Shown: positions 6,990-35,607 of the stretch, piece after piece
Layout: every line of letters begins with the position of its first letter
How positions within the stretch are numbered: position 1 is the stretch's first letter
From: Alphaproteobacteria bacterium
Lineage (GTDB): Bacteria > Pseudomonadota > Alphaproteobacteria > Rhizobiales > Xanthobacteraceae
Assembly (NCBI GenBank): GCA_037200445.1
Contig: JBBCGH010000001.1
Coordinates: 5,468,001-5,532,000, forward strand
Reading direction: 5' to 3'
DNA length: 64,000 bases
Notes under the pieces: generated by a model
Told to the model about the DNA's origin: nothing
What the model saw: only the letters and a program-made list of their open reading frames with translations
Databases searched by the model: none
Program-made: the position numbers and the translations under genes

Positions 6990-8189
<1,200 letters not shown>

Positions 8190-14500: not shown

Positions 14501-16840
<2,340 letters not shown>

Positions 16841-18681: not shown

Positions 18682-19854
18682 ATGTTGCGCAGACAATTCC
18701 TTTTGAGCGCCGCGGTCGTCGCGAGCGCCTTTGCCGCCTATCCCGCCGCCGCGCAGGAAACCGTCAAGATCGGGCTGATTCTGCCGATGACCGGCCAGCA
18801 GGCCTCGACCGGCAAGCAGATCGACGCGGCCGTGAAGCTCTATCAGGCGCAGCACGGCACGACGGTGGCCGGCAAGAAGGTCGAAGTCATCCTGAAGGAT
18901 GACGGCGCCGTGCCGGACAACACCAAGCGCATCGCGCAGGAACTGATCGTCAACGACAAGGTCAATTTCATCGCGGGCTTCGGCGTGACGCCGGCGGCGC
19001 TCGCCGCCGCGCCGCTTGCCACGCAGGCGAAAGTGCCGGAAGTCGTGATGGCGGCCGGCACCTCGATCATCACCGAGCGTTCGCCCTACATCGTTCGCAC
19101 CAGCTTCACGCTGCCGCAGTCCTCCGTCATCATCGCCGACTGGGCGCTGAAGAATAACATCAAGAAGGTCGTCACCCTGGTGTCTGACTACGCGCCCGGC
19201 GCGGACGCCGAGAAATCGTTCGCCGAGCGCATCAAGGCCGGCGGCGGCGAGATCGTCGCCGCGATCCGCGTGCCGCTGGCGAACCCCGACTTCGCGCCGT
19301 TCCTGCAGCGCGCCGCCGACGCCAAACCGGACGCACTGTTCGTGTTCGTTCCGTCCGGTCAGGGCGGCACATTCATGAAGCAGTTCGTCGAGCGCGGTCT
19401 CGACAAGGCGGGCATCAAGGTGATCGGCCCCGGCGACGTGACCGACGACGATCTGCTTCCGAACATGGGCGACGCGGTTGTCGGCACCGTGACGGCGCAC
19501 ATGTATTCGGCTTCGCACCCCTCGCAGATGAACAAGGACTACGTGGCGGCCTTCGAAAAAGCGAACAACTTCCGCCCCAACTTCATGTCGGTCGGCGGCT
19601 ATGACGGCATGCACCTGATCTACGAGGCACTGAAGAAGACCAACGGCGACACCGATGGCGACAAGCTGATCAACGCCATGAAGGGGATGAAGTGGGAAAG
19701 CCCGCGCGGGCCGATCTCGATCGACCCCGAGACGCGCGACATCGTGCAGAACATTTACATCCGCAAGGTCGAGAAGGTGAACGGGCAGCTCTATAACCAG
19801 GAGTTCGCGACCTTCGACGCCGTGAAGGATCCAGGCAAGGCCGACAAGAAGTAG
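18682..19854 (+). CDS. livK: Branched-chain-type ABC transporter substrate-binding protein
   Basis: Periplasmic type I solute-binding protein of 390 residues with a signal peptide (FLLSAAVVASAFAAYPAAAQ), then VKIGLILPMTGQQASTGKQI, the standard start of the Peripla_BP_6 family. GGAGG precedes the ATG. It heads a complete livKHMGF set. Such systems in alphaproteobacteria often import aromatic acids as well as amino acids (family knowledge), and the position between ligABC and ligM suggests an aromatic or amino-acid-like ligand (inference). Confidence 0.9.
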   Translation: MLRRQFLLSAAVVASAFAAYPAAAQETVKIGLILPMTGQQASTGKQIDAAVKLYQAQHGTTVAGKKVEVILKDDGAVPDNTKRIAQELIVNDKVNFIAGFGVTPAALAAAPLATQAKVPEVVMAAGTSIITERSPYIVRTSFTLPQSSVIIADWALKNNIKKVVTLVSDYAPGADAEKSFAERIKAGGGEIVAAIRVPLANPDFAPFLQRAADAKPDALFVFVPSGQGGTFMKQFVERGLDKAGIKVIGPGDVTDDDLLPNMGDAVVGTVTAHMYSASHPSQMNKDYVAAFEKANNFRPNFMSVGGYDGMHLIYEALKKTNGDTDGDKLINAMKGMKWESPRGPISIDPETRDIVQNIYIRKVEKVNGQLYNQEFATFDAVKDPGKADKK

Positions 19855-19875
19855 ACGACTCTGGCACTCCTCTTC

Positions 19876-20016
19876 ACCTCTCCCCCTGCGGGGGAGAGGT
19901 CGGACCGCGAAAGCGGTCCGGGTGAGGGGGCGGAGAGACAAGGGCAAATGCCCCTCACCTGGCTCGGTGCTTTCGCACTTCGCCACCCTACCCCCGCTGA
20001 CGCGGGGCGAGGGAAC
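19876..20016. repeat. Composite palindromic repeat between livK and livH
   Basis: Three stems: ACCTCTCCCC-ctgcg-GGGGAGAGGT (19876-19900), CGGACCGC-GAAA-GCGGTCCG (19901-19920), and further inverted segments with CACTTCGCCACCCTACCCCCGC to about 20016. A typical GC-rich mosaic repeat of this lineage. It divides the receptor gene from the permease genes and may lower downstream expression or stabilise the livK message. Confidence 0.7.
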
Positions 20017-20033
20017 AGGCTAGCCTCCCGCGC

Positions 20034-20894
20034 ATGCTCACCATCCTGTTCGACGGTATCGCCTACGGCATGCTGCTGTTCGTGGTGGCGTGCGGACTTG
20101 CGGTCACGCTCGGGCTGATGAACTTCGTCAACCTCGCGCATGGCGCCTTCGCCATGGCGGGCGGCTATATCACCGTCATCCTGGTCAATTGGCTTGGCCT
20201 GCCATTCCTCGCCTCGCTGCCGCTCGCTTTCCTGTTCACTGCAGCGATCGGCCTCGTGCTCGAACGCACACTTTATGTCCATGTCTATACGAGGACTCCG
20301 CTCGAGCAGGTACTGTTCACCATCGGCCTCGTGTTCATGTCGGTTGCCGCCGTCGACTACGTGATGGGATCGCAGCAGCAGTTCGTCTCGATCCCGTCCT
20401 ACCTGCAGGGCCAGATCAACCTGTTCGGCGTCGGCATCGGCCGCTATCGGTTGCTGATCATCGCGGTCTGCGGGCTCCTCACCATTGCGCTCCAATTCTC
20501 GCTCTCCAAGACGCGCTTCGGCTCGCGCCTGCGGGCCGCGGTCGACGATGCGCGCGTCGCGCGCGGCCTTGGCATCAATGTCAACGCGGTCTTCGCCGTG
20601 ACCTTTGCGGTCGGCACCGGTCTTGCCGGCCTCGGCGGCGCGCTCGGCGCGGAAATCCTCGGGCTCGATCCGATCTTCCCGCTCAAGTTCATGATCTACT
20701 TCCTGATCGTTGTGACGGTCGGCGGCACGTCCAGCATCACGGGGCCGTTCATCGCCTCGCTGGTGCTCGGCATCGGCGACGTGGCGGGCAAGTATTACGT
20801 GCCGCAGTTCGGTGCCTTCATCATCTACATCATCATGATCGTGGTGCTGATCTGGCGGCCGCAGGGCCTGTTCTCGCGTGCGGTCGCCAAATGA
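20034..20894 (+). CDS. livH: ABC transporter permease, LivH family
   Basis: Inner-membrane permease of 286 residues with about eight hydrophobic helices. Family marks: GLAVTLGLMNFVNLAHGAFA near the N-terminus, LERTLYVHVYTR, and the cytoplasmic coupling region SRLRAAVDDARVARGLGINV that contacts the ATPases. Its stop overlaps the livM start (ATGA). Confidence 0.92.
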   Translation: MLTILFDGIAYGMLLFVVACGLAVTLGLMNFVNLAHGAFAMAGGYITVILVNWLGLPFLASLPLAFLFTAAIGLVLERTLYVHVYTRTPLEQVLFTIGLVFMSVAAVDYVMGSQQQFVSIPSYLQGQINLFGVGIGRYRLLIIAVCGLLTIALQFSLSKTRFGSRLRAAVDDARVARGLGINVNAVFAVTFAVGTGLAGLGGALGAEILGLDPIFPLKFMIYFLIVVTVGGTSSITGPFIASLVLGIGDVAGKYYVPQFGAFIIYIIMIVVLIWRPQGLFSRAVAK

Positions 20895-22078
20895 GCGTGA
20901 TCGGGCAGCAGGTCGATCTCGGCCCGCTGATCGCGCGGGGACGCGCGAGCTTCGCGCAGCGCGCACGCTGGAGCGTTCCAGAGATCACGTTCTGGCTGAT
21001 CGTCGTCGCGTCGGTGTTTTTACTGCCGAGCAAGCACCTGATCCTGACCGAGATCGCGATCCTCGCGTTGTTCGCGCTCTCGCTCGACCTGATCCTCGGC
21101 TATGCGGGCATCGTGTCGCTCGGACACGCGGCCTTCTTCGGGTTCGGCGCCTATGTGGCGGGCATTCTCGCCAAATACGGGATCGTGAAGGAGCCGGTGC
21201 TGGCGCTGCTCGTTTCCGGGCTTGCCGCCGCGGTCGTCGGCTTTATCACCAGCTTCCTGGTACTGCGCGGCTCGGACCTCACGCGTCTGATGGTCACGCT
21301 CGGCGTCGCCCTGGTCCTGCGCGAGATCGCGAACCGGCTCGACATCACCGGCGGCGCCGACGGCCTGCAGGGCGTCGTGATGGAGCCGGTGCTCGGGCAC
21401 TTCGCCTTCGATATCTTCGGGAAGACCGCCTACATCTACAGCCTGGTCGTGCTGTTCATCCTGTTCGTGCTGGCGCGACGCATCGTCAATTCGCCATTCG
21501 GGCTGTCGCTGCGATCCGTCCACGACAACCCGCTGCGCGCCTCGGCGATCGGCATCCATGTCAACGGCCGGCTCGTCGCGATCTACACGCTGGCGGCAGG
21601 CTACGCGGGCATCGCGGGCGCGCTGCTCACGCAATCGACGCAATTTGCCTCGCTCTCGGTGCTCGACTTCGAGCGCTCCGCCGACGTGATGCTGATGGTG
21701 ATCATCGGTGGTACCGGCTATCTCTACGGCGGGTTGATCGGCGCCATCCTGTTCAAGCTGGTGCAGGACTATCTCGCCAACGTGACGCCGCAATACTGGC
21801 AGTTCTGGCTCGGCCTCGCGCTGGTGATGATGATCATGTTCGGGCGCGTCTACGGCGCGATCATCGCGGCGTTCATTTTCGGCTGGTGCACCGTGCTGAA
21901 GCTGCCGTTCATGCAGAGCATCGTCTTCACGGTCGTTCTCGTGCTGGTGCTCGGCCTCGCGCGGCCGCACGTTCTTTCCTTCACGGCGAAGATCACCGAA
22001 CGCGCCAACGCGCTTCAGCGCAGCGTGAGGGCGCGCTTCGCGCGCAAATCCGGAGAGGCCGATGCCCCCGGTGCTTGA
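20891..22078 (+). CDS. livM: ABC transporter permease, LivM family
   Basis: Inner-membrane permease of 395 residues. The ATG at 20891 is used because it overlaps the livH stop and is followed by a cytoplasmic leader and then the first helix (EITFWLIVVASVFLLPSK). LivM motifs: LSLDLILGYAGIVSLGHAAF, GGADGLQG, and the coupling segment SLRSVHDNPLRASAIGI. The C-terminal part has extra hydrophobic segments (FIFGWCTVLKL, IVFTVVLVLVLGL) and a basic tail, somewhat longer than usual. It overlaps livG by 17 bases. Confidence 0.92.
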   Translation: MSVIGQQVDLGPLIARGRASFAQRARWSVPEITFWLIVVASVFLLPSKHLILTEIAILALFALSLDLILGYAGIVSLGHAAFFGFGAYVAGILAKYGIVKEPVLALLVSGLAAAVVGFITSFLVLRGSDLTRLMVTLGVALVLREIANRLDITGGADGLQGVVMEPVLGHFAFDIFGKTAYIYSLVVLFILFVLARRIVNSPFGLSLRSVHDNPLRASAIGIHVNGRLVAIYTLAAGYAGIAGALLTQSTQFASLSVLDFERSADVMLMVIIGGTGYLYGGLIGAILFKLVQDYLANVTPQYWQFWLGLALVMMIMFGRVYGAIIAAFIFGWCTVLKLPFMQSIVFTVVLVLVLGLARPHVLSFTAKITERANALQRSVRARFARKSGEADAPGA

Positions 22079-22814
22079 GACCAAAGGGCTGGAAAAGACC
22101 TTCGGCGGCATTGTGGCGACCGACAACGTTTCGCTTTCGGTCCAGAGAGGCGCGCGCCACGCCCTGATCGGGCCGAACGGCGCCGGCAAGACCACGCTCA
22201 TCAACCTGTTGACCGGCGTGCTGCGCCCGACCGCGGGGACCATCTTCCTTGAAGGCCGGGAAATCACCGGTCTTGCGCCACACCAGCGCGTCCGGCTCGG
22301 CATCGCGCGGACCTTCCAGATCAACCAGCTCTTCGCCAAGCTTACGCCGCTCGAGACCATCGGGCTGGCGGTCTCCGAGCGCATGGAGCTTGGCCGCCAA
22401 TGGTGGCGGCTCACCGGCTCGAAGGCGATCGTCATCGAGGAGTCGGTCGACATCCTCGCGCGCTTCAATCTCGCCGACGTGATGAACGAGCCGACCGCCA
22501 CGCTGCCTTACGGCAAGCAGCGGCTTCTCGAAATCGCGCTCGCGATCGCCTGCCGGCCGCATGTGCTCCTGCTCGACGAGCCGGCGGCCGGGGTGCCCGA
22601 GGCAGAGCGGCACGGGATTCTCGATGCCGTCGCGGCGCTGCCGAGCGATGTCACGGTGCTGTTGATCGAGCACGACATGGACATCGTGTTCTCATTTGCG
22701 GACCGCATTTCCGTCCTGGTCAACGGCGCGCTGTTCGTCGAGGGCGCGCCCGAAGAGGTCGCCGCCGACCCGCGCGTCAAAGCCGTCTATCTTGGTGAGG
22801 AAGCCCATGCCTGA
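22062..22814 (+). CDS. livG: ABC transporter ATP-binding protein, LivG family
   Basis: ATPase of 250 residues. Walker A GPNGAGKTT, Q-loop IARTFQINQLF, a signature in LPYGKQRLLEIALAI (LSGGQ replaced by LPYGK, common in LivG), Walker B VLLLDEPAAG and the His-loop LLIEHDMDIVFSFADR. It pairs with LivF on the LivHM channel. The start lies within the end of livM. Confidence 0.92.
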   Translation: MPPVLETKGLEKTFGGIVATDNVSLSVQRGARHALIGPNGAGKTTLINLLTGVLRPTAGTIFLEGREITGLAPHQRVRLGIARTFQINQLFAKLTPLETIGLAVSERMELGRQWWRLTGSKAIVIEESVDILARFNLADVMNEPTATLPYGKQRLLEIALAIACRPHVLLLDEPAAGVPEAERHGILDAVAALPSDVTVLLIEHDMDIVFSFADRISVLVNGALFVEGAPEEVAADPRVKAVYLGEEAHA

Positions 22815-23541
22815 GCTCCTCGCCATCGAGAACCTCCGCGCCGGCTACGGCGAGGCGGTCGTGTTGTCGAAGGTCTCGCTTTCGGTCGCCGAAGGCCAGT
22901 CGCTCGCGCTGCTCGGCCGCAACGGAATGGGCAAGACCACGCTGGTCAATTCGATTGTCGGCGTGACGCGCTACTTTGGCGGCACGATCAGGCTCGACGG
23001 GCGCGACATCACGCGGCTGCGCGCGGACCAGCGCGCGCATGCGGGCGTCGGCTGGGTGCCGCAGGAGCGCAACATCTTCAAATCTCTGACCGTCGAGGAA
23101 AACCTCACCGCCGTGGCGCAGCCCGGGCCGTGGACCCCCGCGAAGGTGTTTGCGATGTTTCCCCGGCTCGCGGAGCGGCGCCGAAATCTCGGCAATCAGC
23201 TTTCTGGCGGCGAACAGCAGATGCTCGCGGTCGGGCGCGCGCTGATCCTCAACCCGCGCATCATCCTGCTCGACGAGCCGCTCGAAGGGCTCGCGCCGAT
23301 CATCGTCGAGGAGCTGCTGGCGGCGCTCAAACGCATCATCCAGGAGGAAGGCCTCTCGGCGATCCTGGTCGAGCAGAACGCCAAGAAGATTCTTGGCGTC
23401 ACCGACCGCTGCGCCGTGATCGAGCGCGGCGGCATCGTGCACGAGGCGGAAAGCTCTGCGGTTGCAGCCGACAAGGCCGTGCTGGAGAGGTATCTCGGCG
23501 TAGCCGACAGCGACCGGCTGCGGCGGGGGAAGCGGCACTAA
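22807..23541 (+). CDS. livF: ABC transporter ATP-binding protein, LivF family
   Basis: ATPase of 244 residues. Walker A GRNGMGKTT, GWVPQERNIFKSLTVEENL, signature QLSGGEQQMLAVGRAL, Walker B IILLDEPLEGLAP and switch region VEQNAKKIL. The ATG at 22807 overlaps the end of livG and follows GGTGAGG. The stop overlaps by four bases the end of the convergent dioxygenase gene. Last gene of the transporter operon. Confidence 0.92.
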   Translation: MPELLAIENLRAGYGEAVVLSKVSLSVAEGQSLALLGRNGMGKTTLVNSIVGVTRYFGGTIRLDGRDITRLRADQRAHAGVGWVPQERNIFKSLTVEENLTAVAQPGPWTPAKVFAMFPRLAERRRNLGNQLSGGEQQMLAVGRALILNPRIILLDEPLEGLAPIIVEELLAALKRIIQEEGLSAILVEQNAKKILGVTDRCAVIERGGIVHEAESSAVAADKAVLERYLGVADSDRLRRGKRH

Positions 23542-24560
23542 GCTCGCCGCTTCACTGCCTCCGCCTTCGGCCCCTTCGCGAACAAATATTTCTCCAGCGT
23601 CAGCGGATCGCCCGCCGACGCCTCTCGAACTTTCACATCGGGGAACGGAGAAGGTTCCTGGAACCAGCTGCGCGGTGGCGGTGGTCCCCACAAATTAGTG
23701 TTCCTGCCCGTAAGATCGTAGCGCACTGGCTCATCATCGATGTCGATGGTCTGCACGGGAGGCAATAGCAACTCCACGCGATGCCCGTCCGGATCGCGTA
23801 GATAGACATAGTACGAATGGCCGTGCCCATGGCGGCCGGGGCCATGCTCGAGGTTCTCGCCGAAGCCGAGATTGCCCGCGCAATCGAGTGCCCGCACCAC
23901 GTGGTGCATCTCGGCGACGACAAATCCGACGTGATGGAAGCGCGGCCCCGCGCGGGTCATGAATACGATGTCGTGCGGATTGCCCTTCCGGTGCAGGAAG
24001 GACGCGACGATGCGATCGCCCACACAGTAATAGTCCGACACGCGAAATCCGAGGTCGGCGTAGAAGGCGGCCGTCGAAGCGACATCCGGCACCAGCACCT
24101 GCATGTGGTCGAGCCGCATCGCGGACGCACCCTTGTGCTCATGCGTGCGGGTGTGCTGGCGCTGTTGCGTCTTCATCCGTGCGCAGAATTCGAGCGGCGT
24201 GCCGGCGGCATCGCTCATATGCAGCGTGCGCCCCTGGAACGGCACGTTGACGAATTTCGCTGCAATTCCCTTGGCGTCGAAGTGTGCCTTGGCCCTTTCG
24301 AGATCGTCCTCCTCGAACACACGAAAGCCTATACGCTCACAGGCGGGTTCCTCCTTGGTACGTTTCAGTGTCAGGCAGTGATGCGCACGCTCTTCCACCC
24401 CGCGGAAATGGATCGTGGTGGCGGTTTCGTCGGAGACCTTGAGGCCTATCACTTCGGTGTAGAAGTCGCGCGCCTTCGCGAGGTCGCGCGAGGTCAGCAC
24501 GAGATGGCTCGCGCGCGTGATGTTGAAGGGCGGGTGAAAACTGGTGGGCGGCAGGGTCAT
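23538..24560 (-). CDS. VOC-fold extradiol dioxygenase-like protein (catechol 2,3-dioxygenase/HpaD type)
   Basis: Two-domain vicinal-oxygen-chelate protein of 340 residues. The N-terminal VOC domain (NITRASHLVLTSRDLAKARD, FYTEVIGLKVSD) is joined by a His-rich linker (KTQQRQHTRTHEHKG) to the catalytic domain. There the probable Fe ligands are His in MRLDHMQVLVPDV, His in RFHHVGFVVAEM, and Glu in DPDGHRVELLLPP, with HSYYVYLRDPDGHR as in type I extradiol dioxygenases. It follows ligM by 12 bases and should be co-transcribed, suggesting ring cleavage of a catechol released by O-demethylation. The substrate is unknown. It is unrelated in fold to LigAB. Confidence 0.85.
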   Translation of the reverse strand: MTLPPTSFHPPFNITRASHLVLTSRDLAKARDFYTEVIGLKVSDETATTIHFRGVEERAHHCLTLKRTKEEPACERIGFRVFEEDDLERAKAHFDAKGIAAKFVNVPFQGRTLHMSDAAGTPLEFCARMKTQQRQHTRTHEHKGASAMRLDHMQVLVPDVASTAAFYADLGFRVSDYYCVGDRIVASFLHRKGNPHDIVFMTRAGPRFHHVGFVVAEMHHVVRALDCAGNLGFGENLEHGPGRHGHGHSYYVYLRDPDGHRVELLLPPVQTIDIDDEPVRYDLTGRNTNLWGPPPPRSWFQEPSPFPDVKVREASAGDPLTLEKYLFAKGPKAEAVKRRA

Positions 24561-24572
24561 ACCGCCCAGTAT

Positions 24573-26024
<1,452 letters not shown>

Positions 26025-26122: not shown

Positions 26123-27235
26123 ATGAAATCGATGGCAAGTGCCAAGCCGCCGTTCCGCGCCGACCATGTGGGCAGTATCCTGCGCTCCGCTCCGTTGAAG
26201 GACGCGCGCGCCAAGCGCGAGAAGGGCGACATCACCGCGGCTGAGCTCAAGGCGGTCGAAGACGCCGAGATCAAGAAGATCATCGCCAGGCAGGAGGAGA
26301 TCGGCCTGCAGCTTGCGACCGACGGCGAGTACCGCCGCTCATGGTGGCACTTCGATTTTCTCGAAGGGCTTGGCGGGGTCGAGGGCTACACGGCGGACCA
26401 CGGCATCCAGTTCGCCGGCGTCGAAACCAAGCCGCGCGGCGTACGCGTCACCGGCAAGGTGCATTACAAGCCGCACCCGTTCATCGAGCATTTCAAGTTC
26501 GTGAGAGAGAACACCAAGGTCACGCCCAAGATGACCATTCCGGCGCCGTCGGTGCTGCACTTCCGCGGCGGACGCAAGGGCATCTCGAAAGAGGTCTATC
26601 CGGACCTCGACGCATTCTTCGCGGACCTCGGGCAGGCCTACAAAGACGTCGTGAAGGCGTTCTACGACGCCGGCTGCCGCTATCTGCAGTTCGACGACAC
26701 CGTGTGGGCCTACCTGTGCTCGCAGAAAGAGCTGGAACTCGCGAGGCAGCGGGGCGACGACCCGACGCGGCTGCCGGAGATCTACGCCCAAGTGATCAAT
26801 GCGGCGATCAACGGCCGCCCGTCCGACATGGTGATCACCACCCACGTGTGCCGCGGGAACTTCCGCTCCACCTGGATTTCCGAGGGCGGCTACGAGCCGG
26901 TGGCCGAGGTGATGTTCGGCAAGACCGACTACGACGGCTATTTCCTCGAATACGACACCGAGCGAGCCGGCGGGTTCGAGCCGCTGCGCTTTGTCCCGAA
27001 GGGCAGGAAGCAGGTGGTGCTCGGCCTGATCACCTCGAAGTCCGGTACGCTGGAACAGAAGGGGGACGTGAAAAAGCGCATCGACGAGGCGACCAAATAC
27101 GTCGCCCTCGACCAGCTCTGCCTCTCGCCCCAGTGCGGCTTTGCGTCGACTGAGGAGGGCAACGTGCTCACCGAGGAAGCCCAGTGGGCGAAACTGGGCA
27201 TGATCGTGGACCTGTCACGGGAGGTGTGGGGCTGA
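26123..27235 (+). CDS. MetE C-terminal-domain-like methyltransferase, paralogue 1
   Basis: Protein of 370 residues corresponding to the catalytic C-terminal barrel of cobalamin-independent methionine synthase, with no N-terminal MetE domain (the YxjG/YxjH or epoxyalkane:CoM-transferase size class). N-terminal RADHVGSILRSAPLKDAR aligns with the TIGSFP region of MetE. Zinc ligands are His and Cys in THVCRGNF, Glu in FLEYDTERAGGFE, and Cys in LSPQCGFAST. The acid motif is QFDDTVWAYL. MetE-type enzymes activate a thiol on zinc and accept the methyl of 5-methyl-tetrahydrofolate. It belongs to subgroup A with paralogue 4. An in-frame ATG at 26132 is an alternative start. It is divergent from ligM. 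Confidence 0.82.
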   Translation: MKSMASAKPPFRADHVGSILRSAPLKDARAKREKGDITAAELKAVEDAEIKKIIARQEEIGLQLATDGEYRRSWWHFDFLEGLGGVEGYTADHGIQFAGVETKPRGVRVTGKVHYKPHPFIEHFKFVRENTKVTPKMTIPAPSVLHFRGGRKGISKEVYPDLDAFFADLGQAYKDVVKAFYDAGCRYLQFDDTVWAYLCSQKELELARQRGDDPTRLPEIYAQVINAAINGRPSDMVITTHVCRGNFRSTWISEGGYEPVAEVMFGKTDYDGYFLEYDTERAGGFEPLRFVPKGRKQVVLGLITSKSGTLEQKGDVKKRIDEATKYVALDQLCLSPQCGFASTEEGNVLTEEAQWAKLGMIVDLSREVWG

Positions 27236-27345
27236 CCCCACCTTCCCTTCCGTTCGGGCAAAACCGCTGTTGATTTTCCTCGCCCGGAAAACCACTATCC
27301 GGGCAACGAGATGGCGCACGCGCCCGCAAAGATTGGGAGAGCCCC

Positions 27346-28227
27346 ATGGCCCTGGAAACCGGCGAAAAGTTCACCAAAGAAGTCCTCAAGCGCTACGAGG
27401 ACATCCCGAACCCGCGCCTGCGCGAGGTGATGCAGGCTGCCGTCAAGCACCTGCATGCCTTCGTCAGCGAGGTGAAACCGAACGGCGAGGAGTGGTTCAA
27501 GGCGATCCAGTACCTCACCGCCATCGGCCACAAGTGCGACGACAAGCGCCAGGAATTCATCCTGCTGTCGGACACGCTCGGCGTCTCGATGCTGGTGGAC
27601 GACATCAACAACCGCAGGGTCGCCGGCGCGACCCCCTCGACCGTCGAAGGCCCTTTCCACATTGCGGACTCGCCCGAGATCGCCGACGGCGGCGACATGG
27701 CGAAGGGCGCGCCCGGCATTCCGTGCTTCGTGACCGGCAAGGTCAGAGGCCTCGACGGCAAACCGATCGCGGGCGCGCTGCTCGATCTGTGGCAGACCGA
27801 CGGCGAAGGCCTCTACGAGGAGCAGCGCCGCACCGCCGATCCGTGGATGCGCGGCATCTACCACACGAATGCCGACGGCTCGTTCTGCGTGCGCACTGTC
27901 GCGCCGATCAGCTACTCGATTCCGATGGACGGGCCGGTCGGCAACTTCTTTACGCATACGACCATGAGCCATATCCGCCCCGCGCACATTCATTTCGCGG
28001 TCTCGGCGCCCGGCCACCACTATCTCGTCACGCACCTGTTCCAGAAGGGCGACGAGTACATCAACAACGACGTGGTGTACGGCGTGAAGGAGCCGCTGGT
28101 GGTCGAATTCGTCAAGAAGCCGCCCGGCAAGGCGCCGAACGGGGAGACGATCGACACGCCGTTCTATGAAGTGAAGTACGACTTCGTGATGGAGCAGAAG
28201 CAGGCGCAGCTCGCGGCCGCCGAATAG
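27346..28227 (+). CDS. Intradiol ring-cleavage dioxygenase (hydroxyquinol/catechol 1,2-dioxygenase type)
   Basis: Non-haem Fe(III) dioxygenase of 293 residues. It has the N-terminal helical dimerisation domain of the catechol/hydroxyquinol 1,2-dioxygenase group (YLTAIGHKCDDKRQEFILLS, DTLGVSMLVDDI) and then the beta-sandwich core: TPSTVEGPFHIADSP, DLWQTDGEGLYEEQ (Tyr ligand), SYSIPMDGPVGNFF (second Tyr ligand) and HIRPAHIHFAVSAPGHHYL (two His ligands). It opens a 1,2-diol between the hydroxyls; hydroxyquinol or a methoxylated analogue is the likely substrate. GGGAGAG precedes the ATG. It is inserted between paralogues 1 and 2 of the MetE-like set. Confidence 0.88.
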   Translation: MALETGEKFTKEVLKRYEDIPNPRLREVMQAAVKHLHAFVSEVKPNGEEWFKAIQYLTAIGHKCDDKRQEFILLSDTLGVSMLVDDINNRRVAGATPSTVEGPFHIADSPEIADGGDMAKGAPGIPCFVTGKVRGLDGKPIAGALLDLWQTDGEGLYEEQRRTADPWMRGIYHTNADGSFCVRTVAPISYSIPMDGPVGNFFTHTTMSHIRPAHIHFAVSAPGHHYLVTHLFQKGDEYINNDVVYGVKEPLVVEFVKKPPGKAPNGETIDTPFYEVKYDFVMEQKQAQLAAAE

Positions 28228-28238
28228 TCAATTCTGCT

Positions 28239-29351
28239 GTGTCGCGTACGCGTCCGCCGTTCCGGGCTGACCATGTCGGAAGCCTGCTGCGCCCGGCGGC
28301 GCTGAAGGACGCGCGCGAGAAGCTTAGCCGCGGCGCGCTCGATGAAGCGGCCTCCAAGGACATCGAAGACCGCGAAATCGAGAGGTTGATTGCGAAGCAG
28401 GAAGCGATCGGGCTGAAGTCGGTCACGGATGGCGAGTATCGCCGCGCCTCGTGGCAGACCGATTTCCTCAAGGCGCTTGACGGCATCGAGACGAAACTTG
28501 GTGACCGCAAGATTCGCTTTCAGGGTGGTGTGCAACCCAAGCAATGGGTTTCAACCGTGAAGGAAAAGCTCGGCCGCTACACCGGGCACCCGATGATCGC
28601 CCACTACCGATTTCTGGCGGAGCACACGAAGGCAACGGCCAAGTTCACCATCCCCTCCCCGTCCGCGCTGCATTTCCGGCAGGGGCGCGAGGCGGTTCCT
28701 GAGTCGATCTACCCCGATATGGCGGATTTCTACGGCGACCTCGGCACGCTCTATTCAAAGGTCGTGCGCGACTTCGCGGACGCGGGCTGCCGCTATCTGC
28801 AGCTTGATGAGGTGAACCTCGCCTATTTGTGTGATCCGACTCTGCGCGAGCACATTCATGCGCGAGGCGATGACCCCGAAACATTGCCGTTGACCTACGC
28901 CGGCATGATCAACGCAGCCATCTCGAACATCCCGTCCGACATGACGATCACCATGCATCTGTGCCGCGGGAACTTCCGCTCCACGTTCGTGGCAAGTGGA
29001 GGCTACGACCCGATCGCCGAGATGCTGTTCAACACGATCAATGTGCACGGCTATTTCATGGAGTACGACAGCGAGCGCGCCGGTGGCTTCGCACCGCTGC
29101 GCTTCCTGCCCAAGGGCAAAACCGTCGTGCTCGGGCTTGTCACCTCGAAAACCGGGACGCTCGAGAGCAAGGACACGATCAGGCGGCGCATTGACGAAGC
29201 CGCGAAATTCGCCCCGCTCGATCAGCTGGCGCTCTCGCCGCAATGCGGCTTCGCCTCGACCGAGGAAGGCAATGTGCTTGCCGAAGACGAGCAATGGGCG
29301 AAGCTGCGCATGATCGTGGAGATCGCCGACGAGATATGGGGAAACGCATGA
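28239..29351 (+). CDS. MetE C-terminal-domain-like methyltransferase, paralogue 2
   Basis: Protein of 370 residues, starting at a GTG (28239) 11 bases after the dioxygenase stop; the ribosome site is weak. N-terminus PFRADHVGSLLRPAALKDAR. Zinc site intact: His/Cys in MHLCRGNFRST, Glu in FMEYDSERAGGF, Cys in LSPQCGFAST. The acid motif is QLDEVNLAYL, unlike paralogues 1 and 4 (QFDDT), so it groups with paralogue 3 (subgroup B). It keeps an aromatic/charged patch DGEYRRASWQTDFLKAL where the others have RRSWWH. Its stop overlaps the next start (ATGA). Confidence 0.82.
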   Translation: MSRTRPPFRADHVGSLLRPAALKDAREKLSRGALDEAASKDIEDREIERLIAKQEAIGLKSVTDGEYRRASWQTDFLKALDGIETKLGDRKIRFQGGVQPKQWVSTVKEKLGRYTGHPMIAHYRFLAEHTKATAKFTIPSPSALHFRQGREAVPESIYPDMADFYGDLGTLYSKVVRDFADAGCRYLQLDEVNLAYLCDPTLREHIHARGDDPETLPLTYAGMINAAISNIPSDMTITMHLCRGNFRSTFVASGGYDPIAEMLFNTINVHGYFMEYDSERAGGFAPLRFLPKGKTVVLGLVTSKTGTLESKDTIRRRIDEAAKFAPLDQLALSPQCGFASTEEGNVLAEDEQWAKLRMIVEIADEIWGNA

Positions 29352-30448
29352 AGGGCTTGAAGCCGCCGTTTCGCGCCGAACATGTCGGCAGCCTGCTGCG
29401 GCCGGCCGCGCTGAAGGAGGCGCGCGCGAAGCGCGTCAGGGGCGAGATGTCGGCTGCGGACCTGAAGGCCGTGGAAGACCGCGAGATCGAGCGCGTGATC
29501 AAGAAGCAGGAAGAGGTCGGCCTGCAGGCTGTCACCGACGGCGAATTCCGCCGCTCGTGGTGGCATCTCGATTTCCTCTGGGGCCTCGACGGCGTCGAGC
29601 GGCACGTGATGGATACCGGCGTCGCCTTCGCGGGCGTCAACACGCGCGCCGAGGGCATCATGGTCACCGGCAAGGTTGGATTCACCAGCCACCCGATGGT
29701 CGAGCACTACAAGTTCGTCGCCGCGCACACCAAGGCCATGCCGAAGATCACCATTCCGGCGCCCTCCGCGATCTACGGCCGCCCCACGCCGACGCCGATC
29801 GACAAGGCGACCTACAAAGACCTCGACTCATTCTTCCACGATGTCGGCCAAGCGTATCGCAAGGCGGTGCGCGCCTTCGCCGACGCCGGCTGCCGTTATC
29901 TCCAACTCGACGAAGTGTTCATCGCGATGCTCTGTGACGAGAAATACCGCCAGCAGATGCGCGACCGCGGCGACAATCCGGAAAAGCTCGGCGAGGCCTA
30001 CGGCGACCTGATCAACGTCGCAATGTCGGACATTTCCGCCGATATGACGATCACGATGCACATGTGCCGCGGCAACTACAAATCCACCCACATGGGCGCA
30101 GGCGGCTACGAGGCCGTGCAGGAAATCCTGTTCAACAAGATCAACGTGCACGGCTATTTCATGGAATACGACGACGCGCGCTCCGGCGGCTTCGAACCCT
30201 TACGCATGCTGCCTAAGGGTAAGCAGGTCGTGCTGGGCATCGTCACCACCAAGACCGGCAAGCTCGAAAGCAAGGATGATCTGAAGCGCCGCATCGACGA
30301 GGCCGCGAAGTTTGCGCCACTCGATCAGCTTTGCCTCTCCGGCCAGTGCGGCTTCGCCTCGACCGAGGAAGGCAACGTACTGACCGAAGACGAACAGTGG
30401 GCGAAGCTGCGGCGCATCGTCGAAGTCGCCGAAGAGGTGTGGGGATGA
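29348..30448 (+). CDS. MetE C-terminal-domain-like methyltransferase, paralogue 3
   Basis: Protein of 366 residues; the ATG at 29348 overlaps the previous stop. N-terminus PFRAEHVGSLLRPAALKEAR. Zinc ligands present: His/Cys in MHMCRGNYKST, Glu in FMEYDDARSGGFE, Cys in LSGQCGFAST (Pro of SPQC changed to Gly). The acid motif QLDEVFIAML places it in subgroup B with paralogue 2. A proline-rich stretch (YGRPTPTPIDKATY) replaces the FRxGRxxIS segment of paralogues 1 and 4, suggesting a different substrate pocket. Its stop overlaps the next start. Confidence 0.82.
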   Translation: MKGLKPPFRAEHVGSLLRPAALKEARAKRVRGEMSAADLKAVEDREIERVIKKQEEVGLQAVTDGEFRRSWWHLDFLWGLDGVERHVMDTGVAFAGVNTRAEGIMVTGKVGFTSHPMVEHYKFVAAHTKAMPKITIPAPSAIYGRPTPTPIDKATYKDLDSFFHDVGQAYRKAVRAFADAGCRYLQLDEVFIAMLCDEKYRQQMRDRGDNPEKLGEAYGDLINVAMSDISADMTITMHMCRGNYKSTHMGAGGYEAVQEILFNKINVHGYFMEYDDARSGGFEPLRMLPKGKQVVLGIVTTKTGKLESKDDLKRRIDEAAKFAPLDQLCLSGQCGFASTEEGNVLTEDEQWAKLRRIVEVAEEVWG

Positions 30449-31557
30449 GCATGCAACGCTCCAAACCACCCTATCGCGCCGATCATGTGGGCTCATTCCT
30501 GCGCACCTCGGCCATCAAGGAGGCGCGCGAGAAGCGCGAGGCGGGCAAGATCACGGCCGAGCAACTGAAGGCCGTCGAGAACGACGAGATCAAAAAGATC
30601 ATCGCCCGGCAAGAACAGTGCGGCCTGCAGCTTGCGACCGACGGCGAGTTTCGCCGCTCCTGGTGGCACTTCGATTTCCTTTGCGCGCTCGATGGCGTGG
30701 AGATGAAGCAGCTCGAGCACGGCATCCAGTTCGCCGGCGTGCAGACCAAGGCGGAGCGGCCTGACATCGTCGGCAAGATCGGGTTCTCCAATCATCCGAT
30801 GATCGAGCACTTCAAGTTCCTGAAGGCAAATACGCGCATCACGCCGAAGATGACGATCCCGTCGCCGACGCTGATGCATTTCCGCTTTGGGCGCGCGTCG
30901 ATCTCGAAGACGCTCTATCCCGATCTCGACGAGCTGTTCGACGACCTCGGCAAGGCCTATGCGAAGGCGGTGCGCGCCTTCTACGATGCCGGTTGCCGGT
31001 ACCTGCAGTTCGACGACACCATCTGGGCGTTCCTGTGCTCCGAGAAGGAGCGTGCGCAGTCGCGTCAGCGCGGCGACAATCCGGACGAGCTGCCGGGCAA
31101 GTACGCCAAGATGATCAACCAGGCGCTGGCCGCCAAACCCGCCGACATGACCATTACAACGCATGTCTGCCGCGGCAACTTCCGCTCCACCTGGATTTCC
31201 GAGGGCGGCTACGAGCCCGTCGCCGAGACGCTGTTTGGCATCAACTACGACGGCTTCTTCCTCGAATACGACACCGAGCGCGCCGGCGGCTTCGAGCCGC
31301 TGCGCTTTGTGCCCAAGGGTAACAAGCAGATCGTGCTCGGCTTGGTTTCGTCCAAGCTGGGTGCGCTGGAGCCAAAGGACGCGCTCAAGCGCCGCGTCGA
31401 CGAAGCGACGAAGTATGTGGCGCTCGACCAGCTCTGCCTCTCGCCGCAGTGCGGCTTTGCCTCCACCGAGGAGGGCAACCTGTTGAGCGAGGACGAGCAA
31501 TGGGCCAAGCTGGGCATGATCGTTGAGGTCGCTAACGAGGTGTGGGGCAGACAATGA
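30445..31557 (+). CDS. MetE C-terminal-domain-like methyltransferase, paralogue 4
   Basis: Protein of 370 residues; the ATG at 30445 overlaps the previous stop (a second ATG is two codons on). N-terminus PYRADHVGSFLRTSAIKEAR. Zinc ligands: His/Cys in THVCRGNFRSTW, Glu in FLEYDTERAGGFE, Cys in LSPQCGFAST. The acid motif QFDDTIWAFL and the shared segment WISEGGYEPVAE pair it with paralogue 1 (subgroup A). The operon therefore encodes two A-type and two B-type proteins in the order A, B, B, A. Its stop overlaps the start of the SDR gene. Confidence 0.82.
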   Translation: MSMQRSKPPYRADHVGSFLRTSAIKEAREKREAGKITAEQLKAVENDEIKKIIARQEQCGLQLATDGEFRRSWWHFDFLCALDGVEMKQLEHGIQFAGVQTKAERPDIVGKIGFSNHPMIEHFKFLKANTRITPKMTIPSPTLMHFRFGRASISKTLYPDLDELFDDLGKAYAKAVRAFYDAGCRYLQFDDTIWAFLCSEKERAQSRQRGDNPDELPGKYAKMINQALAAKPADMTITTHVCRGNFRSTWISEGGYEPVAETLFGINYDGFFLEYDTERAGGFEPLRFVPKGNKQIVLGLVSSKLGALEPKDALKRRVDEATKYVALDQLCLSPQCGFASTEEGNLLSEDEQWAKLGMIVEVANEVWGRQ

Positions 31558-32468
31558 CCGGGCATGTCGAAGGCAAGGTTGCGATCGTCACCGGCGCGGG
31601 ACGCGGCATCGGGCGCGCCATCGCGATGCTGATGGCGAAGGAAGGCGCCAGCGTCGTCGTGGTCGACCTCGGCGCGGCGCTGGATGGCTCCGGCAGCGAT
31701 CAGGGCCCCGCACAGGAGACCGTCAACGACATCAAAAAGGCCGGCGGCAAGGCCATCGCGTCGACGCTGTCGATCACCGAGCCGCAGAATGCCGAGGCGA
31801 TCGTGAAGGCGGCGATCGATGCCTTCGGGCGCGTCGACATTCTGGTCAACAACGCCGGCATCCTGCGCGACCGCATCTTCCACCGCATGAGCTGGTCCGA
31901 TTGGCACGACGTGATCAACGTGCACCTCAACGGCTCGTTCAACATGGCGCGCGCAGTCGCCGGCCATTTCCGCGAGCAGGAAAGCGGCGCGATGGTGCAC
32001 ATGACCTCGACCTCGGGCCTGATCGGCAATTTCGGACAGGCGAACTACATGGCGGCGAAGCTCGGCATCCACGGGCTCGCACGCGGCATCGCCCTCGACA
32101 TGGCGCGCTTCAAGGTACGCTCGAACTGTATTTCGCCCTCTGCCTGGAGCCGCATGATCGGCTCGATCCCGACCGAAACGGAACAGGAGAAGCAGCGCGT
32201 CGAGCGCCTGAAGCAGATGACCCCCGACAAGATCGCACCGCTCGCGGTCTATCTCTGTTCCGACAAGGCCGACGGCATCAGCGGGCAGATCATCGGCGTG
32301 CGCAACAACGAGATCTTCCTCTATTCGCAGCCGCGCCCGATCCGCGTGCTGCACCGCTCCGACGGCTGGACAGTGGAAAAACTCGACGCACAGCTCAAGA
32401 ACGCCTTCAAGCAATCGTTCACGCCGCTCGAGCGCTCCGGCGACGTGCTCAATTGGGATCCGGTGTGA
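31554..32468 (+). CDS. Short-chain dehydrogenase, 3-hydroxyacyl-CoA dehydrogenase-like
   Basis: NAD(P)-dependent Rossmann oxidoreductase of 304 residues. Cofactor motif VTGAGRGIGRAIAM, structural NNAGILRD, catalytic Ser in MTSTSGLIGNF and YxxxK in NYMAAKLGIHG. The pattern, including GILRDRIFHRMSWSDWH, resembles the (3R)-hydroxyacyl-CoA dehydrogenase domain of multifunctional enzyme type 2. The C-terminal extension (about residues 240-304) has no known motif. Coupled to paralogue 4 upstream and the hydratase downstream (TGATG), so it probably acts in a CoA-thioester side-chain pathway. Confidence 0.85.
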   Translation: MTGHVEGKVAIVTGAGRGIGRAIAMLMAKEGASVVVVDLGAALDGSGSDQGPAQETVNDIKKAGGKAIASTLSITEPQNAEAIVKAAIDAFGRVDILVNNAGILRDRIFHRMSWSDWHDVINVHLNGSFNMARAVAGHFREQESGAMVHMTSTSGLIGNFGQANYMAAKLGIHGLARGIALDMARFKVRSNCISPSAWSRMIGSIPTETEQEKQRVERLKQMTPDKIAPLAVYLCSDKADGISGQIIGVRNNEIFLYSQPRPIRVLHRSDGWTVEKLDAQLKNAFKQSFTPLERSGDVLNWDPV

Positions 32469-33325
32469 TGGCGATCGTCTACGACAGACTGATGGCACTG
32501 AAGATCCCGGACTCGGAGCAGTCCTACACGGCGGGCGATCCGATCTTCTATGCGCTCAGCCTCGGGCTCGGGCAGGACCCGATGAACCAGGACGAGCTGC
32601 GCTTCGTTTACGAGAAGGATCTCAAGGTCCTGCCGACCTTCACTTGCGTGGTCGCGCATCCGGGCTTCTGGGCGCGCGATCTCGACACCGGCATCGACTG
32701 GGTGAAGGGCGTGCATGGCGAGCATCGGGTCGAGCTGCACAAGCCGCTCCCGCCGAAGGGATCGCTCATCGGACGCACGCGCGTGCTCGAGATCGTCGAC
32801 AAGGGGCCCGGCAAGGGCGCGCTCATCTATTCGGAGCGCAAGCTTTCCGACAAGGCAACCGGCGAACTGCTCGCCACCATCAACCAGACCAGCTTTGCGC
32901 GCGGCGACGGCGGCTTCGGCGGGCCACAGCGCGCGACACCCGCGCCGCATGCGATCCCGGAGCGCGCACCGGACGCGGTCTGCGATCTGTCGACGCGGCC
33001 TGAAATGGCGCTGCTCTATCGCTGGAACGCCGACATGAACCCGCTGCACGCCGACCCTGCGATCGCCAAGGCGGCGGGTTTCCCGCGGCCGATCCTGCAC
33101 GGGCTTGGGACCTTCGGCGTCGCGGGTCACGCGATCCTGAAGACGATGTGCGGCTACGATCCGGCGCGGTTCAAGTCGATCGCCGGCCGCTTCTCCTCGC
33201 CGGTGTTTCCGGGCGAGACAATCCGCACCGAGATGTGGCGCGACGGACCGGTCGTGAGTTTTCGCGCCCGACTGGTCGAGCGCGATGTGGTGGTGTTGAA
33301 CAACGGCCGAGCAGAAATCGCGTAA
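32468..33325 (+). CDS. MaoC-type 2-enoyl-CoA hydratase
   Basis: Double hot-dog hydratase of 285 residues like the hydratase-2 part of eukaryotic multifunctional enzyme 2. The catalytic hydratase motif is in the C-terminal half: WNADMNPLHADPAIAKAAGF with Asp and His, followed by PRPILHGLGTFG. The N-terminal half (YTAGDPIFYALSLGLGQDP, VLPTFTCVVAHPGFW) is the non-catalytic hot-dog. The ATG at 32468 overlaps the SDR stop. With the SDR it would hydrate a 2-enoyl-CoA to a 3-hydroxyacyl-CoA and oxidise that. Confidence 0.88.
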   Translation: MAIVYDRLMALKIPDSEQSYTAGDPIFYALSLGLGQDPMNQDELRFVYEKDLKVLPTFTCVVAHPGFWARDLDTGIDWVKGVHGEHRVELHKPLPPKGSLIGRTRVLEIVDKGPGKGALIYSERKLSDKATGELLATINQTSFARGDGGFGGPQRATPAPHAIPERAPDAVCDLSTRPEMALLYRWNADMNPLHADPAIAKAAGFPRPILHGLGTFGVAGHAILKTMCGYDPARFKSIAGRFSSPVFPGETIRTEMWRDGPVVSFRARLVERDVVVLNNGRAEIA

Positions 33326-34492
33326 ATGGTAGCCACGCGCGACAGCGAGGAGATCGCCGGCATCCGCGCCGCCGTGCGCTCGCTGTGCGAGAAATTTCCC
33401 GGTGAATACTGGCGCGCGCTCGACCGCGAGCGCGCCTACCCGTCGGAATTCGTCAACGCGCTCACCGAAGCCGGCTTTCTCGCCGCGCTGATCCCGGAGG
33501 AATATGGCGGCAGCGGGCTGACCATCTCGTCGGCGGTCGCCATCATGGAGGAAATCCACGCATCGGGCTGCAACGGCGCCGCCTGCCACGCGCAGATGTA
33601 CGTGATGGGCACGGTGCTGCGCCACGGCAATGCCGACCAGAAGAGCCGTTACCTACCCAGGATCGCAACCGGCGAATTGCGCCTGCAGGCCTTCGGCGTG
33701 ACCGAGCCGACCTCCGGGACCGACACGCTGGCGCTGCGCACCACCGCGGTTCGCGACGGCAACGCGAGCTACATCATCAACGGGCAGAAGATATGGACCT
33801 CGCGCGCCGAGCATTCCGACCTGATGCTGCTGCTCGCCCGCACTACGCCGCGCGACCAGGTGAAGAAGCGCACAGACGGCCTCTCGGTGTTTCTCGTCGA
33901 CATGAAGGCGGGAGGCGAAAGCCTGAAGATCAATCCGATCCGCACCATGATGAATCATGCGACGACCGAGGTATTCTTCGACGACCTGCGCGTGCCGGCC
34001 GAAAATCTGGTCGGCGAGGAGGGCATGGGCTTCCGCTACATTCTCTCTGGCATGAACGCGGAGCGCATCCTGATCGCGGCTGAGTGCATTGGCGACTGCA
34101 AATGGTTCATCGAGAAGGCGAGCAGCTACGCAAAAGAGCGCAAGGTGTTCGGGCGCCCGATCGGGCAGAACCAGGGCATCCAGTTTCCGATCGCGCGCGC
34201 CTACGCGCAGATGCGCGCCGCTGAGCTGATGGTGCATGAGGCGGCTTCACTCTACGAACAGGGCAAGGACTGCGGCGCCGAGGCCAACATGGCGAAGATG
34301 CTCGCCGCGGACGCCTCATGGGCGGCGGCCGACATGTGCGTGCAGACCCATGGCGGGTTCGGATTTGCCGAAGAGTTCGACATCGAGCGAAAGTTCCGCG
34401 AGACGCGGCTCTATTCGGTGGCGCCGATCTCGACCAACCTCATTCTCTCCTATCTCGCCGAGCATGTGCTCGGACTGCCGAGATCGTACTGA
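33326..34492 (+). CDS. Acyl-CoA dehydrogenase
   Basis: FAD-dependent acyl-CoA dehydrogenase of 388 residues, starting directly at the end of the hydratase gene (TAAATG). Motifs: FGVTEPTSGTDTLALRT (FAD/substrate loop), ASYIINGQKIWTSRAEHSDL, GMGFRYILSGMNAERILIAA and the C-terminal MCVQTHGGFGFAEEFDIERK. At the position of the catalytic base of many family members I see AEEFDIER, so the general-base Glu is plausible. Introduces the double bond before the hydratase step. The electron acceptor is presumably ETF, not encoded here. Confidence 0.88.
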   Translation: MVATRDSEEIAGIRAAVRSLCEKFPGEYWRALDRERAYPSEFVNALTEAGFLAALIPEEYGGSGLTISSAVAIMEEIHASGCNGAACHAQMYVMGTVLRHGNADQKSRYLPRIATGELRLQAFGVTEPTSGTDTLALRTTAVRDGNASYIINGQKIWTSRAEHSDLMLLLARTTPRDQVKKRTDGLSVFLVDMKAGGESLKINPIRTMMNHATTEVFFDDLRVPAENLVGEEGMGFRYILSGMNAERILIAAECIGDCKWFIEKASSYAKERKVFGRPIGQNQGIQFPIARAYAQMRAAELMVHEAASLYEQGKDCGAEANMAKMLAADASWAAADMCVQTHGGFGFAEEFDIERKFRETRLYSVAPISTNLILSYLAEHVLGLPRSY

Positions 34493-35607
34493 TGTCCCTG
34501 CCCCTCGAAGGCCTGCTCGTCGTCTCGCTCGAACAGGCCGTCGCGGCGCCGACCTGCTCGTGCCGACTCGCGGATGCCGGCGCGCGCGTCATCAAGATCG
34601 AGCGCCCGGAGGGCGATTTCGCGCGCGGCTACGACTCATTGGCCAAAGGCGAGAGCGCTTATTTCGTCTGGCTCAACCGCGGCAAGGAGTCGATCGTTCT
34701 CGACCTGACGAAGGCGGACGACAAAGCCCTCCTGGAGAAACTGCTCGCCAAAGCCGATGTGTTCATCCAGAACCTGAAGCCCGGCGCGGTCGGCAAGCTT
34801 GGCTTCGCGATCGACCGCCTGCGCCGCGATTGCCCCAAGCTGATCTGCTGCTCGATCACCGGCTTCGGCGAGAGCGGGCCTTTCGCGAAACGCAAATCCT
34901 ACGATCTGCTGGTGCAGGCCGAGAGCGGCCTTGCGTCGGTCACGGGCGGGCCTGAGGCCCCCGCTCGCGTCGGTGTCTCGGTGACGGATGTCGCGGCCGG
35001 CATGAATGCCTATGAGGCAGTGCTGGAGGCAATCATCGCGCGCAGCCGCACCGGACAGGGCGCGACGGTCGGCGTATCCCTGTTCGACGCGATGGCCGAC
35101 TGGATGACCGTGCCGCTTTTGCATCACGAGGGCGGCCAATCGCCCAAGCGCCTCGGTCTCGCGCATCCCTCCATCGCGCCCTATGGCGTGTTCAAGTCCA
35201 AGGACGACGTCCCTATCCTGATCTCGATCCAGAACGACCGCGAGTGGCGTGTGCTTGCCGCAGACGTCATGGACGACGCGGCGCTCGCCGCTGATCCGAA
35301 ATTCGCCACGCTCGTCGACCGCGTGAAGCATCGCGGCGAAACCGACGGCAAGGTCGCGGCGTCGTTCGCCACGATGGATGTCGCGACGTTGTCGAAGAAG
35401 CTCGCGGCCGCCGATATCGCGTTTGCGCGCGTCAACGACGTGGCGGGCCTGATCGAGCATCCGCACCTGCGGCGTATCAGCGTCGACACGCCGCATGGAC
35501 CAGTGTCGTATCCGGCGCCGGCGCCGATCCGCGACCAGGCGCGCAGCTACGGGCGGATTCCGGCGCTCGGAGAGCATACCGAGAAGGTGCGGAAGGAGTT
35601 CGGTTGA
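34492..35607 (+). CDS. Class III (CaiB/BaiF, Frc-type) CoA transferase
   Basis: Family III CoA transferase of 371 residues; the ATG at 34492 overlaps the upstream stop. Motifs: GLLVVSLEQAVAAPTCSCRL (VAAP with Cys where many have FTR), GARVIKIERPEGDFARGY, FVWLNRGKESIVLDL, and the catalytic Asp in KSYDLLVQAESGLASVTG. It would activate a carboxylic acid by transfer from another acyl-CoA, feeding the acyl-CoA dehydrogenase, hydratase and SDR encoded just upstream. It closes the 26.1-35.6 kb operon and converges on an efflux gene two bases away. Confidence 0.88.
   Translation: MSLPLEGLLVVSLEQAVAAPTCSCRLADAGARVIKIERPEGDFARGYDSLAKGESAYFVWLNRGKESIVLDLTKADDKALLEKLLAKADVFIQNLKPGAVGKLGFAIDRLRRDCPKLICCSITGFGESGPFAKRKSYDLLVQAESGLASVTGGPEAPARVGVSVTDVAAGMNAYEAVLEAIIARSRTGQGATVGVSLFDAMADWMTVPLLHHEGGQSPKRLGLAHPSIAPYGVFKSKDDVPILISIQNDREWRVLAADVMDDAALAADPKFATLVDRVKHRGETDGKVAASFATMDVATLSKKLAAADIAFARVNDVAGLIEHPHLRRISVDTPHGPVSYPAPAPIRDQARSYGRIPALGEHTEKVRKEFG

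Follow-up and report, generated by a model that had tools for sequence, protein, structure and literature searches.

Why should a bacterium keep four methionine synthase-like genes side by side in a cluster for the breakdown of lignin-type aromatic acids? The question arises from a stretch of 64,000 nucleotides (hereafter the window; GenBank assembly GCA_037200445.1, contig JBBCGH010000001.1, positions 5,468,001 to 5,532,000) from a soil alphaproteobacterium of the family Xanthobacteraceae, in which four genes on the forward strand, P1 to P4, encode proteins built on the core barrel of the methionine synthase MetE. An initial annotation, made from the sequence of the window, had proposed that the four differ in their thiol or methyl partners or else form a hetero-oligomer. 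The reading that we favour, tentatively and with somewhat less than even confidence, is that they act as homocysteine S-methyltransferases that keep the MetE barrel but do without folate, the methyl groups most likely coming from methoxylated aromatic acids, with one kind of methoxy group per copy.

The array spans positions 26123-31557 and has the order A1-B1-B2-A1, the labels being groups of the protein tree described below: P1 (26123..27235, 370 residues, A1), P2 (28239..29351, 370 residues, GTG start, B1), P3 (29348..30448, 366 residues, its start set at an ATGA overlap, B2) and P4 (30445..31557, 370 residues, A1, outside the A2 clade). All are complete open frames, and the ATGA coupling of the second to fourth paralogues that had been noted holds at both the P2-P3 and P3-P4 overlaps. 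Judged by score, the four are members of the YxjG/YxjH family: P1 to P4 reach 625, 503, 514 and 607 bits, respectively, with the YxjG-type model PRK06520 (NF005085, cut-off 313 bits), and the observation of four tandem MetE-core paralogues of 366-370 residues is confirmed. They miss the cut-offs of the PRK06233 equivalog (576; 414, 350, 369 and 413 bits), of the PRK09121 methionine synthase (392; 40-48 bits) and of MetE itself (TIGR01371, 930; 31-40 bits). Absence of the N-terminal MetE domain, also claimed at the outset, extends to the whole host genome, in which PF08267 has no match. The solved member of the family, 1ypx from Listeria, has in common with P1-P4 a full-length match to the model (519 bits) and the zinc and homocysteine residues, and P1 is 58% identical to its chain as printed. 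In a family-wide sample, however, 40 of the 83 positive genomes have the gene only once, whereas the aromatic cluster of the window combines four copies drawn from three groups.

The copies are, to judge from their sequences, old, differentiated and kept apart. In a tree of 111 proteins, limited to matches longer than 330 residues and holding array genes from 30 of 34 further loci (not L036, L047, L084 and L107; six fragments had been excluded from an earlier tree), A separates from B with bootstrap/SH-aLRT support of 100/100, and A2 (99/95), B1 (100/89) and B2 (100/99) are well supported, A1 being weaker at 88/75. The two subgroups first recognized by motif, A (P1 and P4) and B (P2 and P3), thus stand, as does the view that the copies are diverged rather than redundant. 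Since the paralogue groups span genera, recent duplication or gene conversion is ruled out. Each window copy is 79-91% identical to its same-genus counterparts (for B2, the matches in L102 and L103 are partial and lie at contig ends), and dN/dS against them is 0.12-0.24 for all four, a sign of purifying selection which, with the open frames, excludes pseudogenes.

Similar arrays recur in other genomes. Relatives were surveyed in the 80 most P4-like of 576 confirmed stretches, a choice that favours A-type loci; they fall mainly in the Hyphomicrobiales (Xanthobacteraceae, Pseudorhodoplanes, Rhodoplanes, Bradyrhizobium, Rhodopseudomonas). Twenty further regions from other genomes were added to the array survey. 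With a spacing rule of 2.5 kb, which leaves L113 and L114 uncounted (their A1 and B genes lie farther apart), 39 array rows less four repeated records (L111, L115, L119 and L120) give 35 array loci including the window, that is 34 others, L102 and L103 being two contigs of one genome counted as two. Array genes were labelled by best tblastn match to the sets from the first tree; the commonest orders, by rows, are A1-A2-B1-B2 (6), A1-A2-B1-B1-B2 (5), A1-B1-B1 (5, two of them repeats) and A1-B1-B2 (3). Genes of both A and B type occur together in 33 of the 35 arrays, and among 60 non-array loci (flanks of up to 10 kb) B-type matches were seen in L028 only. The 34 further loci, together with the dN/dS values, argue that the array is not a product of chance. 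Within the family sample, PRK06520 genes were found in 83 of 119 genomes (at least three copies in 33, two in ten, one in 40), with at least 13 in one genome; a class-wide sample had them in 35 of 289, and among the 58 places listed from it same-strand tandem copies appeared only in the window's own genome. These copy numbers are lower bounds, at most 15 candidates per genome having been scored in the family sample and at most six in the class sample.

What the four proteins have in common is most apparent at the active site, for which we take the roles of the zinc, homocysteine and folate-stacking (Trp, W561) residues to be those known from MetE structures. Across the 111 aligned rows the H/C/E/C zinc ligands are kept at 100% in groups A1, A2, B1 and B2, save for the last Cys at 97% in B1. 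The complete zinc site and the A and B motifs of the initial annotation are confirmed. Positions equivalent to I431 (here V), S433, E484 and D599 of Escherichia coli MetE are likewise 100% conserved in all four groups. P1-P4 therefore have in common with MetE the C-terminal barrel, the zinc ligands and the homocysteine residues, but differ from it in lacking both the N-terminal domain and the folate-stacking Trp: W561 is absent from all 16 aligned PRK06520 rows, and the usual methyl-folate site seems to have been lost. Fourteen positions are group-specific (at least 80%), and six of these (192, 193, 197, 240, 247 and 275) are no more than six residues away from a position that binds zinc or homocysteine.

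The thiol can be approached through XecA of pXAUT01, annotated as 2-hydroxypropyl-coenzyme M (CoM) lyase, which belongs to the same fold family and retains the zinc site, but has N in place of S433 and R in place of E484. Because this protein uses CoM as its thiol, the two positions can be taken to report the thiol, and the XecA-like pocket does not occur in P1-P4. Since the zinc and homocysteine sites are common to all the paralogues, and XecA has lost two of these positions, homocysteine would be the shared acceptor and differences among the paralogues would be differences of donor. The suggestion of different thiol partners is thus not borne out. We also consider it highly improbable that the array adds a thiol to, or removes one from, an epoxide, quinone or ring-cleavage product in the manner of epoxyalkane:CoM transferase. 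That scheme could appeal to the fold and zinc site in common with XecA and to the dioxygenase gene inside the array, but P1-P4 are only 18-20% identical to XecA and keep the homocysteine side chains of which XecA has lost two. The dioxygenase (27346..28227, forward strand; PF04444 and PF00775), which does lie between P1 and P2 as had been noted, is of the hydroxyquinol 1,2-dioxygenase type (PnpC, 260 bits; nearest PDB entries PnpC and hydroxyquinol 1,2-dioxygenase). It occurs in only three of the 35 array loci, all of the window's genus, and also in the non-array locus L019 (62% identical), which rules it out as a core part of the array.

Conservation of the catalytic residues bears equally on the proposal that A and B copies assemble into a hetero-oligomer in which one subunit does the catalytic work and the other regulates or shuttles. 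The joint occurrence of A and B genes in nearly all arrays and the overlap of three of the four window genes would suit such a complex, but no group looks like a dead subunit, and A1 stands without B in nearly all the non-array loci seen, in a sample that favours A-type loci. We regard the proposal as improbable and, because A1 occurs in loci without B, an obligate A1-B complex as unlikely for A1.

If the paralogues differ in donor, their genomic company should be informative. PcaHG is encoded near 10 of the 35 arrays and LigAB near 12, one or the other near 22; at least two genes for short-chain dehydrogenase/reductase (SDR), MaoC, acyl-CoA dehydrogenase or CoA-transferase proteins accompany 19, and 30 have either a gene for ring cleavage or at least two of these beta-oxidation genes, in line with the placement of the array in aromatic catabolism. 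A methylenetetrahydrofolate reductase (MTHFR)-like gene occurs in nine arrays, all among the ten with PcaHG, and LigM in five. Several array loci are short contigs, so these counts are lower bounds. The MTHFR-like protein is divergent (cluster c26; PF02219, 28.5 bits, cut-off 24) and in L096 (9098-9928) its gene directly precedes the array. A further protein, c2, encoded in 40 loci (for example L059:13164-14516), has no Pfam match; by eye its start resembles a helix-turn-helix, and it contains what looks like a methyltransferase motif, FDAGxGDGT. The c2 gene precedes metK-ahcY in L059, whereas in some arrays, L096 for example, it has pcaHG and the MTHFR-like gene as neighbours. Among the 60 non-array loci, 29 have metK and 28 have ahcY at the same locus. 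In Bradyrhizobium, a gene for a caspase-domain and TPR protein (L059:11228-13318) lies between the A1 and metK-ahcY genes.

LigM, the tetrahydrofolate (THF)-dependent O-demethylase, offers the closest tie to methyl groups. It was sought in 80 of the 119 family genomes (33 with at least three copies, 29 of the 40 with one copy and 18 of the 36 without; the ten with two were left out) and found in eight, all among the 33 multi-copy genomes as against none of the 47 with no copy or one (p approximately 5e-4, not corrected for kinship). Of the earlier guess about partners, it is therefore the methyl half that is the better supported. In six of the eight, namely the window and five others (G071, G069, G017, G047 and G038), the distance from LigM to a PRK06520 gene is at most about 1.3 kb; in G004 and G108 no PRK06520 gene is on the LigM contig among the matches listed. 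A VanA_C search of the 33 multi-copy genomes gave strong matches (E <1e-30, our own cut) in 16, and 12 have neither these nor LigM. Because two of the 12 are array-bearing genomes of the window's genus, the array is the constant element there and LigM the accessory one. Corrinoid methyl donors were considered and set aside: neither a motif scan nor tblastn with the B12 domain of MetH revealed a corrinoid protein in the 34 array loci or the window, the lone motif match (L048) running antisense inside its A1 gene.

These linkages also invite a more conventional account, in which P1-P4 are methyl-THF:homocysteine methyltransferases that have dispensed with the N-terminal domain and drain the 5-methyl-THF formed by LigM. 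The adjacency of LigM to the window array and its proximity to PRK06520 genes in five other genomes would fit, as would the MTHFR-like gene of nine array loci, and the donor of Lactobacillus YxjH was taken to be methyl-THF by its authors (PMC6004538). Yet the folate-stacking Trp and the N-terminal domain are both absent, 25 of the 33 multi-copy genomes lack LigM, a single enzyme rather than four old groups would suffice, and the host encodes MetH (1742 bits) elsewhere with an MTHFR-like gene adjoining it (the host's match to the array gene, at only 27%). We consider this account unlikely. Since MetH is present, the array is not needed for methionine supply, which is thereby ruled out as its reason.

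A second genomic tie is to import. In the window a livKHMGF-type ABC importer (18682..23541, forward strand) has a LivK 80% identical to the Rhodopseudomonas palustris BisB5 protein of structures 4ey3 (p-hydroxybenzoic acid) and 4eyg, whose ligand name is legible only as far as 'v' and is presumably vanillic acid; LivH, LivM, LivG and LivF are named from position and homologous clusters. An A1 copy stands behind this importer in many Bradyrhizobium and Rhodopseudomonas loci: of the 60 non-array loci, 39 have LivF (at least 55% identity) upstream of A1 with under 500 bp between them and 18 do not, the other three being too short. In L086 (Rhodopseudomonas pentothenatexigens), where LivK matches the BisB5 protein at 743 bits over 367 residues, the A1 gene begins just behind LivF. 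Window LivK is also 41% identical to RPA0985 (4evs), for which binding of 4-hydroxybenzoate has been measured (PMC3223731). As a family-wide rule the linkage is weakened by the 18 loci without an upstream LivF and by a Klebsiella plasmid copy of PRK06520 that is placed ahead of a urea-type importer.

We return to direct O-demethylation as the favoured reading. Zinc would bind and deprotonate homocysteine as in MetE, giving a thiolate at the same site in every copy, while the former methyl-folate pocket would have been rebuilt into a donor pocket that differs from copy to copy. Entering through the Liv system, the donors (vanillate, syringate, 3-O-methylgallate, or compounds related to these through the side chain or through ring cleavage) would hand their methyl group to the sulfur, and the phenol would leave. 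Every copy would act on a single methoxy type and so form methionine, alongside LigM or in its place, and the demethylated ring would pass on to ring cleavage. Gene content, phylogeny, residue conservation and linkage are observed; from the conserved residues we infer the acceptor, from the linkage the donors, and likewise the division of donors among the paralogues. Direct transfer is not chemically far-fetched, because LigM performs a similar step with THF. LigM and DesA would thus act at the pathway step proposed for P1-P4, but they are GcvT-type proteins that transfer the methyl group to THF (PMC8091115). The yxjH gene of Lactobacillus shares a transcript with luxS, a source of homocysteine (PMC6004538).

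Several observations weigh against this reading. Most of the other host PF01717 proteins that were aligned retain the S433, E484 and D599 side chains as well (L004 differs), so the homocysteine residues are not specific to the array. LigM already covers vanillate in the host, the demethylase search covered LigM and VanA only, and the p-hydroxybenzoate bound in 4ey3 carries no methyl group. Methionine would accumulate under a catabolic flux of methyl groups, and the window array is without a methyl sink, the MTHFR-like, c2, metK and ahcY genes all being missing from it. No tested function for the YxjG/YxjH (PRK06520) family was found in the accessible portions of the literature. In R. palustris, deletion of vanARB affects syringate use, implicating VanAB (PMC6974649), and a later study proposes VanAB for demethylation of both vanillate and syringate (PMC12366328); an A1 gene nonetheless follows the importer in those R. 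palustris strains seen, where it might scavenge methyl groups rather than carry carbon flux. Relatives in Listeria (1ypx), Bacillus and Lactococcus have no aromatic context, and the Klebsiella copy, with its urea-type importer, has to be added to these. Such relatives suggest that the family might assimilate methyl groups into methionine from non-aromatic donors, the aromatic genes being mere neighbours, as would accord with the methionine regulation of the Lactobacillus relative. Against this, linkage to protocatechuate cleavage, LigM and a benzoate-type importer recurs across many loci, and the host has MetH; we hold it to be unlikely.

The remaining genes of the window complete the picture of protocatechuate-type aromatic catabolism. 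Behind P4, on the forward strand, follow genes for a 3-hydroxyacyl dehydrogenase-like SDR (31554..32468; PF13561/PF00106, start from the overlap), an MFE-2/MaoC-type enoyl-CoA hydratase (32468..33325; PF22622 and PF01575), an acyl-CoA dehydrogenase (33326..34492; PF00441, PF02770 and PF02771) and a family III CoA-transferase (34492..35607; PF02515). Because successive genes overlap or abut (ATGA from P4 to SDR, TGATG from SDR to MaoC, a zero gap before the dehydrogenase and TGATG before the CoA-transferase), P2 through the CoA-transferase gene is taken as a single transcription unit. Divergent from the array, on the reverse strand, are genes for the LigM-type vanillate/3-O-methylgallate O-demethylase (24573..25982; NF047885, 717 bits, cut-off 580) and an HpaD/C23O-like extradiol dioxygenase (23538..24560; TIGR02295, 292 bits, below the HpaD cut-off of 321). 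Farther upstream of the array lie the importer, the protocatechuate 4,5-dioxygenase subunits LigA and LigB (14501..15827, forward strand; LigA TIGR02792, 169 bits, cut-off 109; LigB recognized through an 83% tblastn match with the PF02900 protein in L041), an amidohydrolase (Pfam Amidohydro_2), which we take to be LigI-like, and the 3-oxoadipyl-CoA thiolase PcaF (6990..8189, forward strand; NF006551, 717 bits, cut-off 605). An open reading frame (ORF) between pcaF and the LigI-like gene (8329-9204) resembles an insertion sequence transposase by eye, and another behind LigB (15416-16840) groups with Gfo/Idh-type oxidoreductases, its true start probably being later than called.

The host genome, a single contig of 5.84 Mb, has 16 PF01717 matches in about 15 proteins (L013 and L016 are one protein). 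Five are of the PRK06520 type, namely P1-P4 plus L010, a distant single copy with 42% identity to P1, and L003 is a PRK09121 member (574 bits). LigM is present once, and VanA_C was not found in the genome. About 15 MetE-core proteins of several subfamilies (L001-L016) thus coexist there with MetH. In L014 the alignment places Pro at the zinc Glu position, and its metal site may be altered. A second MetE-core subfamily, like host L001 and L002, occurs within the clusters of L019, L020, L040, L041, L044, L113 and L114.

Among characterized proteins, the core methionine synthases (MesA-D and core-MetE) are, like P1-P4, barrel-only, and the idea of folate independence is common to both (PMC7857596, PMC7005905); those studied in vitro use methylcobalamin, however, whereas the array loci yielded no corrinoid gene. 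No MetE-like paralogues tied to aromatic gene clusters were found in the titles and abstract openings of a mostly non-subscription literature. In the literature seen, then, the array form, its context and its likely donor appear to be new; the YxjG/YxjH family itself was already known.

Aromatic O-demethylation is known to proceed by Rieske (VanAB), P450, THF-dependent (LigM/DesA) and corrinoid systems. It is a bottleneck in the use of lignin (PMC6021390). Possible, at distinctly less than an even chance, is the stronger claim that these proteins are aromatic O-demethylases requiring neither oxygen, corrinoid nor folate, with direct attack of zinc-bound homocysteine on the aryl methyl ether and a division of the methoxy substrates among the members of A1-A2-B1-B2 arrays. 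If so, they would constitute a further demethylation route, in a family common to Xanthobacteraceae-type genomes, and the widespread YxjG/YxjH family would gain a function, the salvage of methyl groups carried by plant methoxyaromatics.

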